61,621 nucleotides of DNA. It comes from Candidatus Sericytochromatia bacterium. Its GTDB lineage: Bacteria; Cyanobacteriota; Sericytochromatia; S15B-MN24; JAQBPE01. Of this stretch, positions 38,162-61,240 are shown in pieces. Both the position numbers and the translations under genes were made by a program. The DNA is taken from positions 1 through 61,621 of the forward strand of contig JAYKJB010000062.1 of assembly GCA_035285325.1 (NCBI GenBank). Reading direction: 5' to 3'. Numbering within the stretch: the first letter of the stretch is position 1; each line of letters opens with the position of its first letter. Under the pieces are notes generated by a model that saw nothing but the letters and a program-made list of their open reading frames with translations, was not told the DNA's origin and did no database searches.

Positions 38162-39744
38162 GGCAGCACCAGAACGGCATCGCCCACGTCGTTGGCGTCG
38201 TAGAAGAGCTCGAAGGGGCTGGTGGCCATATCACCGACCAGCACGTAGCGCACGCTGTTCGGCTTCATCGTCCAGGCGGAGCGAGAGGGGGCTGCCGAGG
38301 CCCGGTCCATGCGTACCCCACGCAAACTGCGAGCCCCGTAACGCCCGATCAGCCGGAGGGCCCGATACGCGTGCCGGGCCTCTCCACTGAAGCCGGTCTC
38401 GTCCAGGGCGGTGGCCAGCGCCCAGTCCTGCATCATGGCTTCGAAGCGAGTGCCACGGGCTTCCAACACCTTGTTGAGATTGGCAGCCCCGAGCAACGGA
38501 GAGTCGACCAGTTCTCTCAAAAATTCCTCACCCAACTGTTCGACCGCATAGGCCGCGAACAGGTAGGCTGCCCCGTAGGCGGACTGCTCCGGGTTCAGAT
38601 CCCAATCCGTCAGCGAGTAGCTGCCCGGATCTCTCAGGAATGCCATCACGTGAGCCAGTAAAATGCTGGAATCCCCACTGTCGATGCCATATCCGTTGGC
38701 CGCCATGGCGTACATCGAAAGCATCTCGTCGAGCCAGACCTCCTCGGTTTCCCCTCGTGAGGTGGGCGTATCGCCGAACAATTTCCGGCTGGCGTTGATC
38801 AGATGTTGAAACTCGTGCGCAATGGTCCCCATGTAGTCGGCCCGACGCCCAGCTGCCACCACGAAAGGCGACATATACAGCATCAATCGCTGATTGCTGC
38901 GCGCGGTATTGCTGCCTGCTTGAGCCGCAAACAGGTCGCGCGCCGTGAAGTAGCCGATGGTGGTTTCCTGGCCATAATTGCCCACGGCCGGCGAAACCAA
39001 CAGGGAGACGCGACTCCCTTTCAGGCTGCCCCCGGCCACTGGTGCGCCGAACAGGCGCACCGTGGTGGGATAAATGTCTCGCTCGAAGTCCTCCCCCATC
39101 TGAACCCAGGCAGCAGAGCGCCGCACCGAGTCGAGCTCCTGGTCCAGATAGACAACCACGTGCTCTCCCACGAAGACGGCACGCGCCTGAACCTGGCCCT
39201 CCAGCGCCCGACCACCGCTCACCTCGCTGATCACCCAGAAGGTCTCACTCTCACCGACACGCGGCCGCGCGACCTCGCGCAGGGCATACTGACGAGTCTG
39301 AGCTGGCACGGCCCGCAACCAGCCGCGTTCCCAATCCCGCAACCGTTCCCGAAAGGGCGTGTGGAAAGGCGGCGGCTGGACTGAGGTCGCTTCCGCGGAT
39401 GAGCGCCAGCGGGAATCCGAGCCGGGCGGCAAGGGGGCCTGCTCCGGCCCTGAGGCCAGGCGATAGCCTGCAGCGCGCTTGGTCAAGCTCAATGCCACTC
39501 GGGCGCTTTTGGGGCGTGGATTGGTCAGCACCATCAGGCCACCGAAGCGACTCTTGGGTTGCACCAGCAGAGAGGTCGCCTCTCCCACCCGCCGGATCTG
39601 GGCTGGCCCCCCGTCTCGTTGGGTCCGTCCGGAAGCCAGCGCGTCCCCCAATTCCGGACTGAGTGGAACATCGCAACCAGCCAGCCAGGCCGAAAAGATG
39701 GCCAGCGCAAGGAGGTTTCGCCAGGCTCGGGGTGAGGCTTGCAT
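38158..39744 (-). CDS. HExxH zinc metallopeptidase lipoprotein
   Basis: 528 residues from ATG 39744 (GAAGGGA upstream). The lipoprotein signal ends in WLAGC (Cys24). The zinc motif HEFQH is at 310-314, and Glu340 in EEVWLDEML is the likely third ligand, as in gluzincin-type peptidases. The N-terminal ~200 residues form an extra beta-rich region. The last ~130 residues include a possible beta domain. It is the second gene of the operon 40389 to 35677 and overlaps the Hsp70 gene by 4 bases. An envelope peptidase coupled to a cytoplasmic Hsp70 is unusual. Confidence 0.82.
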   Translation of the reverse strand: MQASPRAWRNLLALAIFSAWLAGCDVPLSPELGDALASGRTQRDGGPAQIRRVGEATSLLVQPKSRFGGLMVLTNPRPKSARVALSLTKRAAGYRLASGPEQAPLPPGSDSRWRSSAEATSVQPPPFHTPFRERLRDWERGWLRAVPAQTRQYALREVARPRVGESETFWVISEVSGGRALEGQVQARAVFVGEHVVVYLDQELDSVRRSAAWVQMGEDFERDIYPTTVRLFGAPVAGGSLKGSRVSLLVSPAVGNYGQETTIGYFTARDLFAAQAGSNTARSNQRLMLYMSPFVVAAGRRADYMGTIAHEFQHLINASRKLFGDTPTSRGETEEVWLDEMLSMYAMAANGYGIDSGDSSILLAHVMAFLRDPGSYSLTDWDLNPEQSAYGAAYLFAAYAVEQLGEEFLRELVDSPLLGAANLNKVLEARGTRFEAMMQDWALATALDETGFSGEARHAYRALRLIGRYGARSLRGVRMDRASAAPSRSAWTMKPNSVRYVLVGDMATSPFELFYDANDVGDAVLVLP

Positions 39745-39759
39745 CCAGAGTCCCTTCAA

Positions 39760-40389
39760 TCAGGGCACGGGAAGCCCGAGGTATTCCTTGACTTCGTATT
39801 CAATGGCCATGCGGATGCGGTCTCGCTGCTCCTTGGTGCGAGCCGCTCGTAAGCGTGGGGCATAGCCGTTGATGATCTGGCGACGGGTCGCCACCAGCTG
39901 GGTGAGGCTATCCAGCACATAAGACCACGACAGCCCGACTGCTGCATCCTCCAGCACGACGTCAACTTCCGGGAAAAACTGCAAACCCACGTAGGGTGTC
40001 TCGACGACCCGACCGAGCGGGGGTGCGGTCCACTCACCGCGTTCACTGCGGCAAAACAGCAGCACCCACTGGTCGCGGGTGATGGCCGTCGGCATGACGT
40101 ACCGGCCTCTGCGCCAGCCACTCTTGAGATGCACGGAGAGACGGGGAGTAACCCGAGGCCCGTGGTAGACCTGCCCAACCATCAGCGGGACGCGAAAACT
40201 GCCGGTCTGGGGGTCGGGATGGGCTGTCTCCATCGCCTGCCCCAAAAACGCCATGTCGCTCTCGCGAACCTGCTCATTCAACCAGCCGAGAATCGACAGC
40301 ACCCGTGGCGACGCCCCAGCCGGACCAGCGCCGAGCGTCGCAAGCAGGGCGCCAGCCATACAAGCTGCCAGAAAAGAACGGCCGTTCAT
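39760..40389 (-). CDS. Secreted protein of unknown function
   Basis: 209 residues from ATG 40389 (a GTG one codon earlier is possible). A signal peptide (FLAACMAGALLATLGAGPAGA) precedes ~180 residues with a beta-rich core (YVMPTAITRDQWVLLFCRS) and a helical C-terminus. The Cys in the signal segment is not in a lipobox. It is the first gene of the metallopeptidase/Hsp70/GrpE-like operon. The family is not recognised. Confidence 0.75.
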   Translation of the reverse strand: MNGRSFLAACMAGALLATLGAGPAGASPRVLSILGWLNEQVRESDMAFLGQAMETAHPDPQTGSFRVPLMVGQVYHGPRVTPRLSVHLKSGWRRGRYVMPTAITRDQWVLLFCRSERGEWTAPPLGRVVETPYVGLQFFPEVDVVLEDAAVGLSWSYVLDSLTQLVATRRQIINGYAPRLRAARTKEQRDRIRMAIEYEVKEYLGLPVP

Positions 40390-40436
40390 CACGCGTTACA
40401 TACCCTGCAAACCCAGGGCCTCCCCGCCACAAGGGC

Positions 40437-56042: not shown

Positions 56043-57131
56043 TCATACTTGCCAGGGGAAGACCCTTTCACAGACGGCTTCACGTTGTCGAATGCGGTAG
56101 GCGTGGTGCGCCGTCGTGCCTTCCTGATTCTGGGCAAACGCGGCCGCGTCCATGATTTGAACCTCGAATGGAATGAAAGCCCGCTGCACCACACCGCCGC
56201 GAACCAGGCGAACCAGGGCTCTGGCGGTGAATTGCATGGTGCGGTAGTCGGTGGAACTATGGGGGTTTCGTTCGTGCTCTCGCTCGGGAGCCACCCCGAG
56301 TTGGTGCACCGAGGAGGTGAACTCCTTGAACGACAGCTCGCCTTGGTGGTAGGCCTCCTCAAGTTCGTCAAAGGCTCGTCGAAAGGCAGGAAGATCCACC
56401 AAGGTGTTGATGGAACGACTCGGTTTCACGTTCGGGTAGGCAAACACGTTGTTGACCCGGAGATATTTCAACAGCAACAACGCATAGGCTTTGTCGGGTG
56501 TCACGAATCGCACGCCGAGATGGTCGTAAATTTCCTGCGCCACACTGTCGACCTTGTGCAACAACTTGAGCACCAAACTTTCCCAGGGTTTTTCGGGTTT
56601 GAAGTCACAGCGCAGCAAGGGAATCACCATCTCCCCATCCGTGACCAGCATCCGCGCCTGCCCCAGCTTCAGGTGTTCCGAAAAGCGGTCAAATATCTGC
56701 TGTCTGGCCGCCGCAATCAGGATCGGGTCGTGGGAAAAGCGCGCGTGCGCCACGGCGTGCGCCACCCGCAAAAATGAACAGGCCCAGTTTCGCCACGCGT
56801 GGTCAGGCGTGGAGGCCAACAACAACAGGTCGCCAAATTGTTGCGGAAAGTCGACGGGCAGGCGCTCCAGCCCACGCCAAGGCAATAGCACATCCTCGAT
56901 GAAATGCTTGGTTTGAGCCGCAATCTGAACCAACTCGACCTGATCGGTCGGCTCATCGGGGTCCAGGCCATAAGCGCGCAAGAATTCGCAGGCGGCCTCT
57001 CGCGTGCTGACCCTCAGCCCATCCAGGTCAATGACGGAACGCCCCTCCACAATCGACTCGAGTGTCTGCCAGGGGAAGCGATAGACCGGGTCTGAGATGG
57101 GCGAGCCGGCGACCTCGCGGGGTGATTGCAT
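56043..57131 (-). CDS. Divergent RelA/SpoT-like nucleotidyltransferase-domain protein
   Basis: 362 residues from ATG 57131 (GGAGGAG 6 bases upstream; an ATG 21 bases earlier is in frame). The second half shows the (p)ppGpp-synthetase-type order: DHLGVR at 203-208 (as in DxxGIR), DYRTMQ at 295-300 (like GYRSLH), PFEVQI at 321-326 with Glu323 and Gln325 (like EVQIRT) and AHHAYR at 341-346 (like AHWAYK). No hydrolase, TGS or ACT domain. The first ~180 residues are helical and unlike RSH proteins. The assignment is from motif order and needs a profile search; the biochemical role is unknown. Confidence 0.65.
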   Translation of the reverse strand: MQSPREVAGSPISDPVYRFPWQTLESIVEGRSVIDLDGLRVSTREAACEFLRAYGLDPDEPTDQVELVQIAAQTKHFIEDVLLPWRGLERLPVDFPQQFGDLLLLASTPDHAWRNWACSFLRVAHAVAHARFSHDPILIAAARQQIFDRFSEHLKLGQARMLVTDGEMVIPLLRCDFKPEKPWESLVLKLLHKVDSVAQEIYDHLGVRFVTPDKAYALLLLKYLRVNNVFAYPNVKPSRSINTLVDLPAFRRAFDELEEAYHQGELSFKEFTSSVHQLGVAPEREHERNPHSSTDYRTMQFTARALVRLVRGGVVQRAFIPFEVQIMDAAAFAQNQEGTTAHHAYRIRQREAVCERVFPWQV

Positions 57132-57265
57132 CGCGGGCTCCTCCTGGTTCATTCGCTGCCGCCGAACTTCGGGGCTCTGACCCTCATGTACCACTGCGGC
57201 ACGCGGTCCTTGCACGCGCGGCCCCACGGGCCCTATCATCGACCCGGCACGGGAGTCGCCGACGG

Positions 57266-58147
57266 ATGAGCCAATCTGCCTGGGGGCCCGCACTTCGGGC
57301 CCACTACCAACAACAAACTCCTCCTCGTCGGTTGGCTGTCTGGTTTGCAGGGACCGCCCTCGCCATCGTCGCGTGGGGCCTCTGCTGGGCCGGGTTCGTG
57401 ACCACCATTCTGAACGCCCCTCTGGCGGCGGTAGCGGCCACGCCGCATGTGGCTGGCACCTATGTGGTTGGCTGTTACGTGCTGCTGCTGGGCAGTGCGG
57501 CCTGGACCTGGTTCCGCCTGGAGCGAGGCAACTGGGATGAACTGGGCGCAAGCCTCAAACCCGGCAGGGCCCGTCAAGCTGGAGTGGGGCTTTTGGTGGG
57601 ACTGCTCTCGCTGGCCGGCCTGCTCGGAATTGAACTGCAGGCAGGTCTCTTGAGCCTCACCGCCCCCAGCCAGCCCCTGTGGCCTGGCGTGCTGCCCTGG
57701 GTTGGCCTGGCTTGCCTGTTTGCCGCCTCGGAGGAATGCCTCTTCCGCGGTTTCATCTACCGAATGCTGCGCCGGGGCATGGGAGCATGGGGCAGTGCCA
57801 CCGTCAGCGCAGCCCTCTACGCCGTCGCTCACGTACTCAAAGCGGACGTCCTGTCAGCCCCCCCCTGGCTCCCGTTGCTGGGGCTGGCGCTTGCTGGTCT
57901 GTTTCTGGCCCGCCTGACAGAACGCCTCGGGCATTTCTGGGGCGCAGCGGGCATTCACGCGGGGTGGTTGGCCCTCTTCATTCCGCTGGACCAGCTACGC
58001 TGTCTCGTCGCGCCCAGCGAATACGTCGGGCTGACCGGAGGGGGGTACCCCTTGGGCGGGGCCCTCGGGATGGCGTGCGTGCTGGCACTGTGGTGGGGAA
58101 GCCACCATTGGTGGACGCCGAACGCCCCCGGGGAAAAGGTTGGCTGA
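57266..58147 (+). CDS. CPBP-family intramembrane metalloprotease (CAAX protease-like)
   Basis: 293 residues from ATG 57266 (GGGAG upstream). Eight or so membrane helices. The active-site glutamates are in SEECLFRGFIYR (EExxxR) and further motif His residues are in VAHVLKADV and AAGIHAGWLALF. These match the CPBP (Abi/Rce1-like) intramembrane protease family. A large inverted repeat (58123-58161) follows and spans the stop codon. Substrate unknown. Confidence 0.88.
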   Translation: MSQSAWGPALRAHYQQQTPPRRLAVWFAGTALAIVAWGLCWAGFVTTILNAPLAAVAATPHVAGTYVVGCYVLLLGSAAWTWFRLERGNWDELGASLKPGRARQAGVGLLVGLLSLAGLLGIELQAGLLSLTAPSQPLWPGVLPWVGLACLFAASEECLFRGFIYRMLRRGMGAWGSATVSAALYAVAHVLKADVLSAPPWLPLLGLALAGLFLARLTERLGHFWGAAGIHAGWLALFIPLDQLRCLVAPSEYVGLTGGGYPLGGALGMACVLALWWGSHHWWTPNAPGEKVG

Positions 58148-58161
58148 TTGCCCCGGGGGCG
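58123..58161. terminator. Inverted repeat between convergent CPBP and selenoprotein genes
   Basis: CGCCCCCGGGG (58123-58133) pairs perfectly with 58151-58161 across an 18-base loop that includes the protease stop codon. It lies 10 bases beyond the selenoprotein stop, so it could act for both convergent genes. No U-tract. Confidence 0.45.
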
Positions 58162-58171
58162 AACTTGCCAC

Positions 58172-58387
58172 TCAACGAAGCAGGCCAGGCACCTCATCAG
58201 GTTCAGGGAAGCGCTGACAAGCCTTCTTGTCGAACACTGGGGCCCCGTCTTTGGTCACCAGAAACACGCCCCCACTCCCGCGAGTCAGACGAGCCTCAAT
58301 GCCCAGCGATGCGCGAACCTCGGCAGCCACACGGACTGCCACGGGCTCGTAATTTCAAACGCCGCAGTAGGTAATCTCGATTTGCAT
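58172..58387 (-). CDS. Rdx/SelW-like selenoprotein with in-frame UGA (Sec) in a CxxU motif
   Basis: 71 residues if the UGA at codon 11 (58357-58355) is read as selenocysteine: ATG 58387, then MQIEITYCGV-U-NYEPVAVR. Cys8 and U11 form the CxxU redox motif of the Rdx family (SelW/SelT/SelV/SelH). The C-terminal part keeps the family pattern GGVFLVTKDGAPVFDKK and CQRFPEPDEV. AGGGGAG lies ~9 bases before the ATG and a promoter at 58423-58451. A bacterial SECIS-like hairpin (58322-58340) follows the UGA. The ordinary stop is TGA at 58174-58172. A thioredoxin-fold redox protein of ~8 kDa. Conventional callers would miss it or truncate it. Confidence 0.85.
58322..58340 (-). promoter_or_regulatory. 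Bacterial SECIS-like element inside the selenoprotein gene
   Basis: On the minus strand GGCAGTCCGTGTGGCTGCC folds into GGCAG/CTGCC plus CC/GG with a bulged U and a GUGU apical loop. The bulged U and G-U loop are the features SelB recognises in E. coli fdhF. The apical loop is 26-29 bases from the U of UGA, within the usual bacterial range. Confidence 0.75.
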
Positions 58388-58422
58388 CGACGTCACTCCC
58401 CTCAAACAACCGAACCCCCGCC

Positions 58423-58451
58423 AGCATACGCGCGCGCGAGGGACCTGTCAC
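58423..58451 (-). promoter_or_regulatory. Sigma-70-type promoter of the selenoprotein gene
   Basis: GTGACA (58451-58446) and TATGCT (58428-58423), 17 bases apart on the minus strand, 36 bases before the ATG. The -10 matches that of the tRNA promoter. Confidence 0.6.
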
Positions 58452-59225: not shown

Positions 59226-60107
59226 TCAGCCCCGACGCAGCACACCCAGGTCGTGCTTGAGCGCCTCCTGGAGTTCAGCCCAGTCCAGCACATCGACACC
59301 GGATTCACGCGCCTCTTCCACGAGCCGATAGGTTTGCAGTGTCCTCCAGTGAACGGGGGCTGGCTGTCGTCCGTTGTCTGGTTCAGACGTGACGGGCTGG
59401 GACTCCTTCGCGGTGGCTGCCATTACCCGTTGCACGCGTTGTTCGGCTTGTCTGACACTCAACCCCTGAGCCTGAATCTCCCCGATCAAGGTGGCGCGAG
59501 CCGACGCCTGCTTGAGTTGCACGACGGCCTTGGCATGTCCTGGCGTGAAGTCACTGTCCTTGGCGCTCGCGTGTCCCAACGCCAGTTGCACATCGGGCGG
59601 ATAGCGCAACAGCCGCACCCGTTGTTCGATATATGTCTTGGACTTGCCCAGCTTTTCCCCCAGCTGGCGATGACTCCAAGCCGTTTCATCCAGAATTTGC
59701 TTGAGCACCAAAGCCTCTTCGAGCGGTGTGATGTTCTCCCGCTGAAGGTTTTCAATCAAGGCCACCTGACGTGCCGTGCTGTCGTCCAAGCTCCGAATGA
59801 TCACGGGAATGCTCTCAAGCCCCGCCAACTTGCTGGCATGGTAGCGACGTTCACCCGCCACAATTTCATAGCGTCCGTGACCGCCGGCTGGATGAGGCCG
59901 TACAATCACCGGCTGCAGCAGGCCGTGGCTGCGGATACTCTCGGCCAGTTCCTCCAACGCGGCCGCATCAAAATGCGTCCGTGGCTGCTGGGGATTCGGT
60001 TCCATGGCACTCAGACGAACCTGCCGGGGCGCCACATCGTGAGAAAGCTGGCGACTGGCCTCGAACATGGCGGCGAAACTGCCGCGCACGGGTGAAGCGT
60101 TCGTCAT
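59226..60107 (-). CDS. ParB-like CTPase/DNA-binding protein, module 2
   Basis: 293 residues. The N-terminal domain has PNPQQPRTHFDAAALEELAE, GERRY at 85-89 (then HA where RA is usual) and IENLQRENITPLEEA from residue 118. A helix-turn-helix (HRQLGEKLGKSKTYIEQRVR) follows. The C-terminal LQTYRLVEEARE motif matches ParB 1 (LQTHALLEQARR), while the canonical ParB dimer domain is absent. ATG overlaps the ATPase stop by 4 bases (ATGA), and AGGAGATC is 8 bases upstream. It is more canonical at the ENLQREN motif than copy 1. Confidence 0.88.
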   Translation of the reverse strand: MTNASPVRGSFAAMFEASRQLSHDVAPRQVRLSAMEPNPQQPRTHFDAAALEELAESIRSHGLLQPVIVRPHPAGGHGRYEIVAGERRYHASKLAGLESIPVIIRSLDDSTARQVALIENLQRENITPLEEALVLKQILDETAWSHRQLGEKLGKSKTYIEQRVRLLRYPPDVQLALGHASAKDSDFTPGHAKAVVQLKQASARATLIGEIQAQGLSVRQAEQRVQRVMAATAKESQPVTSEPDNGRQPAPVHWRTLQTYRLVEEARESGVDVLDWAELQEALKHDLGVLRRG

Positions 60108-60973
60108 GCGTCGATCTCCTTGATCGCTTGATTCACGAGCGCCAGGTCGACACCTGGCAGGCCGGCGAAAGTGGCCAGGGTGAAAGCTGACAGACAGATC
60201 TTGTTGACTTCACGCGGAACCCCGCCCGAGGCCTCGTAGATCCGGGCGATCGCCGCACCCTCAAAATAGTCGGGCGCGCATCCCGCCACCTGCAATCGGA
60301 AGCGAATCATGCCTTCGGTATCGGCAAGGTCCAGCGGCTCAAGGGTCGAGCGAGTCACGATCCTTGAGCAGAGCGCCTTCTTGGGTTTCAACTTGGCACG
60401 TAATTCGTTCTGCCCAAACAAGACGATCTGAACCAGCTTGTGGTCATCCGTTTCGAAGTTCAACAATTGCCGCAACAGCTCGAATTGCGACCCCTTCAGC
60501 AGTTGCGCCTCATCGATCAGCAGCACGGCCAATCGTCCTTCCTGGTACTGCGCGATGAAAAAGTCATTGAGCCGTGCCAACGTCGCCTGCTTGCTGCGGG
60601 CGGGCGCAATCCCGAATTCGGCGCAGATCGCCACCAACAGCTGGTGTTCCGAGGGGAAGCTGGGATTCGGCAGATAGGCGACCTGGAATTTCTCAGGGTA
60701 GTCCACAAAGTGATGAAGCAGGTGCCGCCCCACCGTGGTTTTGCCCATCCCGACATCTCCAAAAATGACCGTCAGCCCCTGGCGATGCTCCACCAGGTAC
60801 AGGCTCTTGGCAATGGCCGAGCGATGCTGGGTTCCGACATACAGGTAGCGAGGGTTTGGCGTCAGGCTAAACGGCATCTCCGCGTAGACGGACAGGGGGG
60901 CAACGCTGCCACCCTCCGCGCTCGGCAGAAATGTGGTAGGCCCGGGCTGCGCCTGCAAGCGGTGGGCGGGCAT
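60104..60973 (-). CDS. ExeA-like AAA+ ATPase, module 2
   Basis: 289 residues from ATG 60973 (AAGGAG 8 bases upstream). A ~30-residue Pro/Ala-rich N-terminal extension precedes LSVYAEMPFSLTPNPRYLYV and GTQHRSAIAKSLYLV. Walker A GDVGMGKT (72-79), Walker B LAVLLIDEAQ (Asp154-Glu155), QIVLFGQNEL, and GGVPREVNKIC in the lid match the ExeA/TniB-like group and its paralogue at 21512-22366. No membrane or peptidoglycan-binding domain. The ParB-like gene overlaps its stop. An 18-bp palindrome lies 76 bases upstream. Confidence 0.85.
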   Translation of the reverse strand: MPAHRLQAQPGPTTFLPSAEGGSVAPLSVYAEMPFSLTPNPRYLYVGTQHRSAIAKSLYLVEHRQGLTVIFGDVGMGKTTVGRHLLHHFVDYPEKFQVAYLPNPSFPSEHQLLVAICAEFGIAPARSKQATLARLNDFFIAQYQEGRLAVLLIDEAQLLKGSQFELLRQLLNFETDDHKLVQIVLFGQNELRAKLKPKKALCSRIVTRSTLEPLDLADTEGMIRFRLQVAGCAPDYFEGAAIARIYEASGGVPREVNKICLSAFTLATFAGLPGVDLALVNQAIKEIDA

Positions 60974-61048
60974 GTAGAACTCCTTGTCAGACAGTGAAGG
61001 CAGGGGGCAAGCGCCCACTCCCAACGCATCAAAGCGACCCCCGGTCGC

Positions 61049-61066
61049 GGAATTGGCACCAATTCC
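61049..61066. promoter_or_regulatory. Perfect palindrome upstream of the second AAA+/ParB operon
   Basis: GGAATTGG-CA-CCAATTCC, a perfect 8+8-bp inverted repeat with a 2-base centre, 76 bases before the ATPase ATG. A candidate operator or ParB-binding (parS-like) site. It does not resemble the canonical parS. Confidence 0.5.
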
Positions 61067-61240
61067 TGCCCCCACCCTACGAAATTGACGCTGAATCGTC
61101 GGAGACGGGTGTCACAAGCGTCAACCCCGGGAGCCAGGTCCCTCCGCGACTCACCGTGCCAGGAGCCCGTCGAGCGAACGACGCCTCGAAGAAGAAAGGA
61201 CCGGGAACACGGCAAAGGGGTTGCAGGGCGCCCTGGAAGA

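Follow-up and report, generated by a model that had tools for sequence, protein, structure and literature searches.

Small selenoproteins of the SelW-like type have been known in bacteria since 2005-2006. In the Sargasso Sea they make up the most abundant selenoprotein family, which counts 48 genes and shares a conserved CXXU motif (PMC1088965). A survey of bacteria reported them from Desulfotalea, Geobacter, Alkaliphilus, Desulfotomaculum and Symbiobacterium, Cys forms being few or absent among organisms that use selenocysteine (PMC1794560). Acidobacteria had also previously been listed as having selenoproteins. The gene described here, which lies in the window (the whole stretch of 61,621 nucleotides that was analysed), is a well-supported addition to this family. 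It encodes a small CxxU protein of the same type and carries a candidate bacterial SECIS element after the UGA, as the published genes do (PMC1088965, PMC1794560); judged by the descriptions in those papers, the published genes are known from Deltaproteobacteria, Clostridia and Symbiobacterium, whereas the window gene comes from another lineage, probably Acidobacteriota to judge by its nearest homologues. With a probability of about 0.96, we take the locus to be an Rdx-family SelW-like selenoprotein gene whose in-frame UGA would be read as selenocysteine.

A reading frame that continues through UGA

The gene occupies positions 58172-58387 of the minus strand, opening with ATG and closing at an ordinary TGA (58174-58172). 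Read through the internal TGA at 58357-58355, it encodes 71 residues (MQIEITYCGVUNYEPVAVRVAAEVRASLGIEARLTRGSGGVFLVTKDGAPVFDKKACQRFPEPDEVPGLLR), in which the predicted selenocysteine is residue 11 and completes a CGVU motif at residues 8-11. The coordinates, residue numbers and normal stop proposed by the initial annotation all hold, as does its view that ordinary gene calling would overlook the frame: the plain list of open reading frames holds just one 56-residue fragment here, beginning with GTG and lying 3' of the TGA. Standard annotation splits or misses this gene. A Shine-Dalgarno-like GAGGGGAG (58396-58403, minus strand), recognised from its sequence, stands eight bases before the ATG as had been claimed. 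The promoter proposed alongside it fared less evenly, since a sigma-70-like element (GTGACA-17-TATGCT, 58423-58451, minus strand) does match the consensus at 9 of 12 positions, yet such a match is no evidence of function; two sites of this kind occur in the 701 bases scanned, against 0.2 expected in shuffled sequence.

Similarity of the read-through protein to the Rdx family is far above chance in profile searches. The Pfam model Rdx (PF10262) matches with E=1.6e-14 and 54.3 bits (cut-off 22.6), the NCBIfam model CXXU_selWTH for SelT, SelW and SelH (TIGR02174) with 4.2e-13 and 49.4 bits (cut-off 34.2), and both matches span the TGA. The window protein resembles these families in sequence over both of its halves, in the CxxU/C motif and in its predicted thioredoxin-like fold. 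The Campylobacter-type model SelTWH_Campy (NF041051) scores 1.1e-21 and 76.9 bits, under its equivalog cut-off of 88 bits, so that the protein is not counted as a member of that group. It is the sole Rdx gene found in the genome. That plain gene calling yields only short fragments at the locus might suggest two small frames brought together by an assembly or sequencing error, or by chance similarity; a single Rdx match running across the TGA, and the recurrence of the same TGA in independent genomes, leave this explanation with a negligible probability.

An AlphaFold model, computed with Cys substituted for selenocysteine and 34 homologues as input, was predicted with a pLDDT of 95.5 and a pTM of 0.81, and indicates a thioredoxin-like fold of the SelW type. 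All 21 PDB structures matched by this model with E < 0.001 are bacterial proteins related to SelW, with TM values of 0.90-0.94; MIEN1 and mouse SelW come next. In the model the CGVU motif follows the first strand (residues 3-8), with C8 at the end of that strand and U11 after it, both preceding the first helix, a placement as in thioredoxin-like oxidoreductases. The Cys-type proteins among the structural matches (PDB 2fa8, 2obk, 2oka, 2ojl, 3dex and 2p0g) share the predicted fold and the position of the active site; the Cys forms compared differ from the window protein in having CxxC followed by Trp and a C-terminal extension. At a greater distance, the fold and the CxxU/C motif are shared by mouse SelW (2npb; TM 0.63) and the related MIEN1 (2ljk; TM 0.78), whose sequence identity to the window protein is low, at 19-28%.

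A GC-rich inverted repeat (CGCCCCCGGGG...CCCCGGGGGCG, 58119-58165) lies between it and a convergent gene for an Rce1-like protease (57062-58147, plus strand), and is possibly a terminator shared by the two. The best Rfam match at a loose threshold, to rdlD, falls on the GC-rich hairpin that follows the gene; it is weak (23.7 bits against a gathering threshold of 50) and was taken as chance. Upstream, on the minus strand, are a ParB-like gene (59226-60107) and a gene for an AAA/TniB-like ATPase (60104-61075). No widely kept neighbour was seen among the 202 flanking reading frames of the UGA-containing loci, where no cluster recurred in more than three loci. At three loci (L031, L034 and L048) the UGA-containing gene lies 13-28 bases 3' of a gene for a zinc-type alcohol dehydrogenase on the same strand, a possible operon and a lead for those organisms only.

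Selenocysteine machinery of the genome

The initial annotation held that a selenocysteine system should exist elsewhere in the genome and named selA, selB, selD and tRNA-Sec as the genes to look for; a search of the assembly (3.83 Mb in 138 contigs, 98.6% complete) found every one of them. The tRNA-Sec scores 71.6 bits and is called by ARAGORN as tRNA-SeC with anticodon tca. SelA (551.9 bits) and SelB (370.7 bits in all) lie on the same contig and strand, the SelB match beginning 36 bases past the end of the SelA match. SelD (380.7 bits) itself contains one in-frame TGA near its N terminus (RLTALSQTAGUASKLGPGQL), at what we take to be the catalytic Cys/Sec position of the enzyme, and is thereby a predicted selenoprotein; its gene lies on contig C23 of the genome at about 39504-40430 of the minus strand (locus L018, 1495-2430). 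Since selD and the SelW-like gene both contain a UGA within the frame at a redox position, the genome has at least two such genes, and the organism very probably uses selenocysteine.

A family gene was found in 6 of 98 related genomes, and all five SelW-bearing genomes of the order to which the window genome belongs (itself included) have TGA at codon 11; the sixth, from elsewhere in the phylum, has Cys. Seven of the 98 genomes have a tRNA-Sec above 60 bits, and they include all five of these UGA-bearing genomes, a count that takes genomes as independent of kinship. The line was set at 60 bits because in many genomes matches of 47-50 bits, which are taken to be other long-armed tRNAs, already exceed the Rfam cut-off.

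Conservation at and beyond codon 11

The proposal that the UGA falls on the position where the family carries Sec or Cys is borne out by every homologue found. Across 84 sequences, the window included and some loci being near-duplicates of one another, codon 11 is TGA in 50, TGC in 24, TGT in 10 and nothing else. The scan took one genome per species and added 78 further loci; one of its two patterns demanded a Cys codon at position 11 while the other ignored the codon, which biases the ratio of TGA to Cys. A set of 45 UGA loci comes mostly from other lineages, including Acidobacteriota, Gemmatimonadota, Planctomycetota, Myxococcota and Chloroflexota, and each close homologue found has the UGA at exactly codon 11. 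A tblastn search against plasmids gave no match.

A TGA within a conserved frame could also arise if UGA encoded an ordinary amino acid throughout the genome, Trp or Gly, as in codes 4 and 25. Homologues that lack the TGA have only Cys at this codon, never Trp or Gly; TGA closes the SelW-like gene itself and 36 of the 46 long non-overlapping reading frames of the window, being the commonest stop; and the genome possesses a tRNA-Sec with the matching anticodon. A reassigned code is accordingly a vanishingly small prospect.

In a tree built from 80 columns, in which many forks are poorly supported, 33 of the 34 Cys forms group together with a support of 100/100, separately from the UGA forms; they keep Cys at codon 11 and, unlike the UGA forms, have no SECIS hairpin. 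The scarcity of Cys forms within the UGA group agrees with earlier observations (PMC1794560). The exception is a Cys form from Candidatus Aenigmatarchaeota (L066, 3001-3198) grouped among bacterial UGA forms with support of 96/58, a weakly supported placement that may possibly reflect a change from Sec to Cys or a transfer. Nearest to the window copy are two acidobacterial sequences, one of them from Thermoanaerobaculaceae, with about 63% identity, which suggests an acidobacterial origin of the window; the branch of the window copy is long (0.83), and some of its residues are unusual, such as FDKK where others have FSK.

Two further lines of support go beyond what the initial annotation had claimed, namely purifying selection after the UGA and a SECIS-like hairpin. 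Over the 54 codons that follow the UGA, comparison with the nearest homologue gives a dN of 0.39 and a dS of 2.04, the latter a rough value near saturation of synonymous sites, with a clear direction. Third positions account for 34 of the 66 differences, and comparisons with seven other homologues likewise show an excess there. This pattern clearly argues that the part beyond the UGA is translated and kept under purifying selection.

The RNA 3' of the UGA folds with an energy of -20.7 kcal/mol (z -2.2 to -2.9); its excess stability is marked when the controls are codon-matched synonymous versions of this coding sequence (z -2.9). The putative bacterial SECIS hairpin, defined by this fold and by the same register in UGA homologues, spans 58314-58349 of the minus strand. 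Its outer stem, taken from the fold, pairs 58349-58344 with 58319-58314; its inner stem of eight pairs joins 58341-58334 to 58328-58321; and its apical loop, CGUGU (58333-58329, with G at 58332), begins 21 nt past the UGA. Across the family the excess in folding energy is modest (mean z -0.86 for UGA genes against -0.30 for Cys genes), and the position, pairing and loop G therefore weigh more than the energy. In 46 distinct UGA genes the inner six pairs form at the same offset in 86% of cells, whereas shuffled partners reach a mean of 76% and a maximum of 79%, with none of 1000 shuffles attaining 86%; in 34 Cys genes the figure is 44%, no higher than under shuffling. Pair 20-32 appears as CG, TA, TG, GC and AT across the UGA genes, and the G of the apical loop is kept in 45 of 46. 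The register is common to the UGA homologues and absent from the Cys homologues. An Rfam search at a loose threshold placed no SECIS family over the hairpin. Bacterial SECIS elements have been described as characterised by a guanosine within a small apical loop (PMC1088965); the window hairpin, lying downstream of the UGA, has such a loop and is predicted to be bound by SelB. Eukaryotic SECIS elements differ in lying in the 3' UTR (PMC12013277), and not directly after the UGA as here.

These results bear on whether the locus is instead a decayed Cys-type Rdx gene, in which TGC or TGT mutated to TGA to leave a pseudogene. The long branch and unusual residues of the window copy are what such decay might produce; however, the same TGA recurs in 49 other loci from many phyla, which refutes decay for the family as a whole, while the selenocysteine machinery of the genome, the hairpin 3' of the TGA and the selection acting past it all speak against it in the window. 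Decay of the gene is thus very improbable, and although the long branch would be compatible with a slow decay of this one copy, to which a slight chance must be left, its reading frame is unbroken and its conserved residues are in place.

Proposed decoding, function and significance

In a selenoprotein gene of this kind, a ribosome reaching the UGA at codon 11 would encounter the hairpin that starts right after it, bound by SelB with Sec-tRNA-Sec(UCA), which SelA would form using the selenophosphate that SelD provides. Selenocysteine would be inserted and translation would continue to the ordinary TGA stop. The predicted product is a small thioredoxin-like protein. Its CxxU motif, on the loop that leads from the first strand into the first helix, would form a selenenylsulfide; the most likely function, presumed from family and fold, is that of a small cytosolic thiol/selenol oxidoreductase.

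At the level of the family, the 46 distinct UGA sequences show what the SECIS element looks like in this particular family, and the gene extends the documented SelW-like family within a lineage with few described selenoproteins. For the organism itself, no formate dehydrogenase alpha subunit scored over the cut-off in the genome despite the full selenocysteine pathway, and this leads to the suggestion, which we consider unlikely, that the genome may encode very few selenoproteins, the SelW-like protein and SelD being two of them, and that the whole pathway might be kept largely for the SelW-like protein. If that were true, the genome would be a clean system in which to find the function of bacterial SelW.
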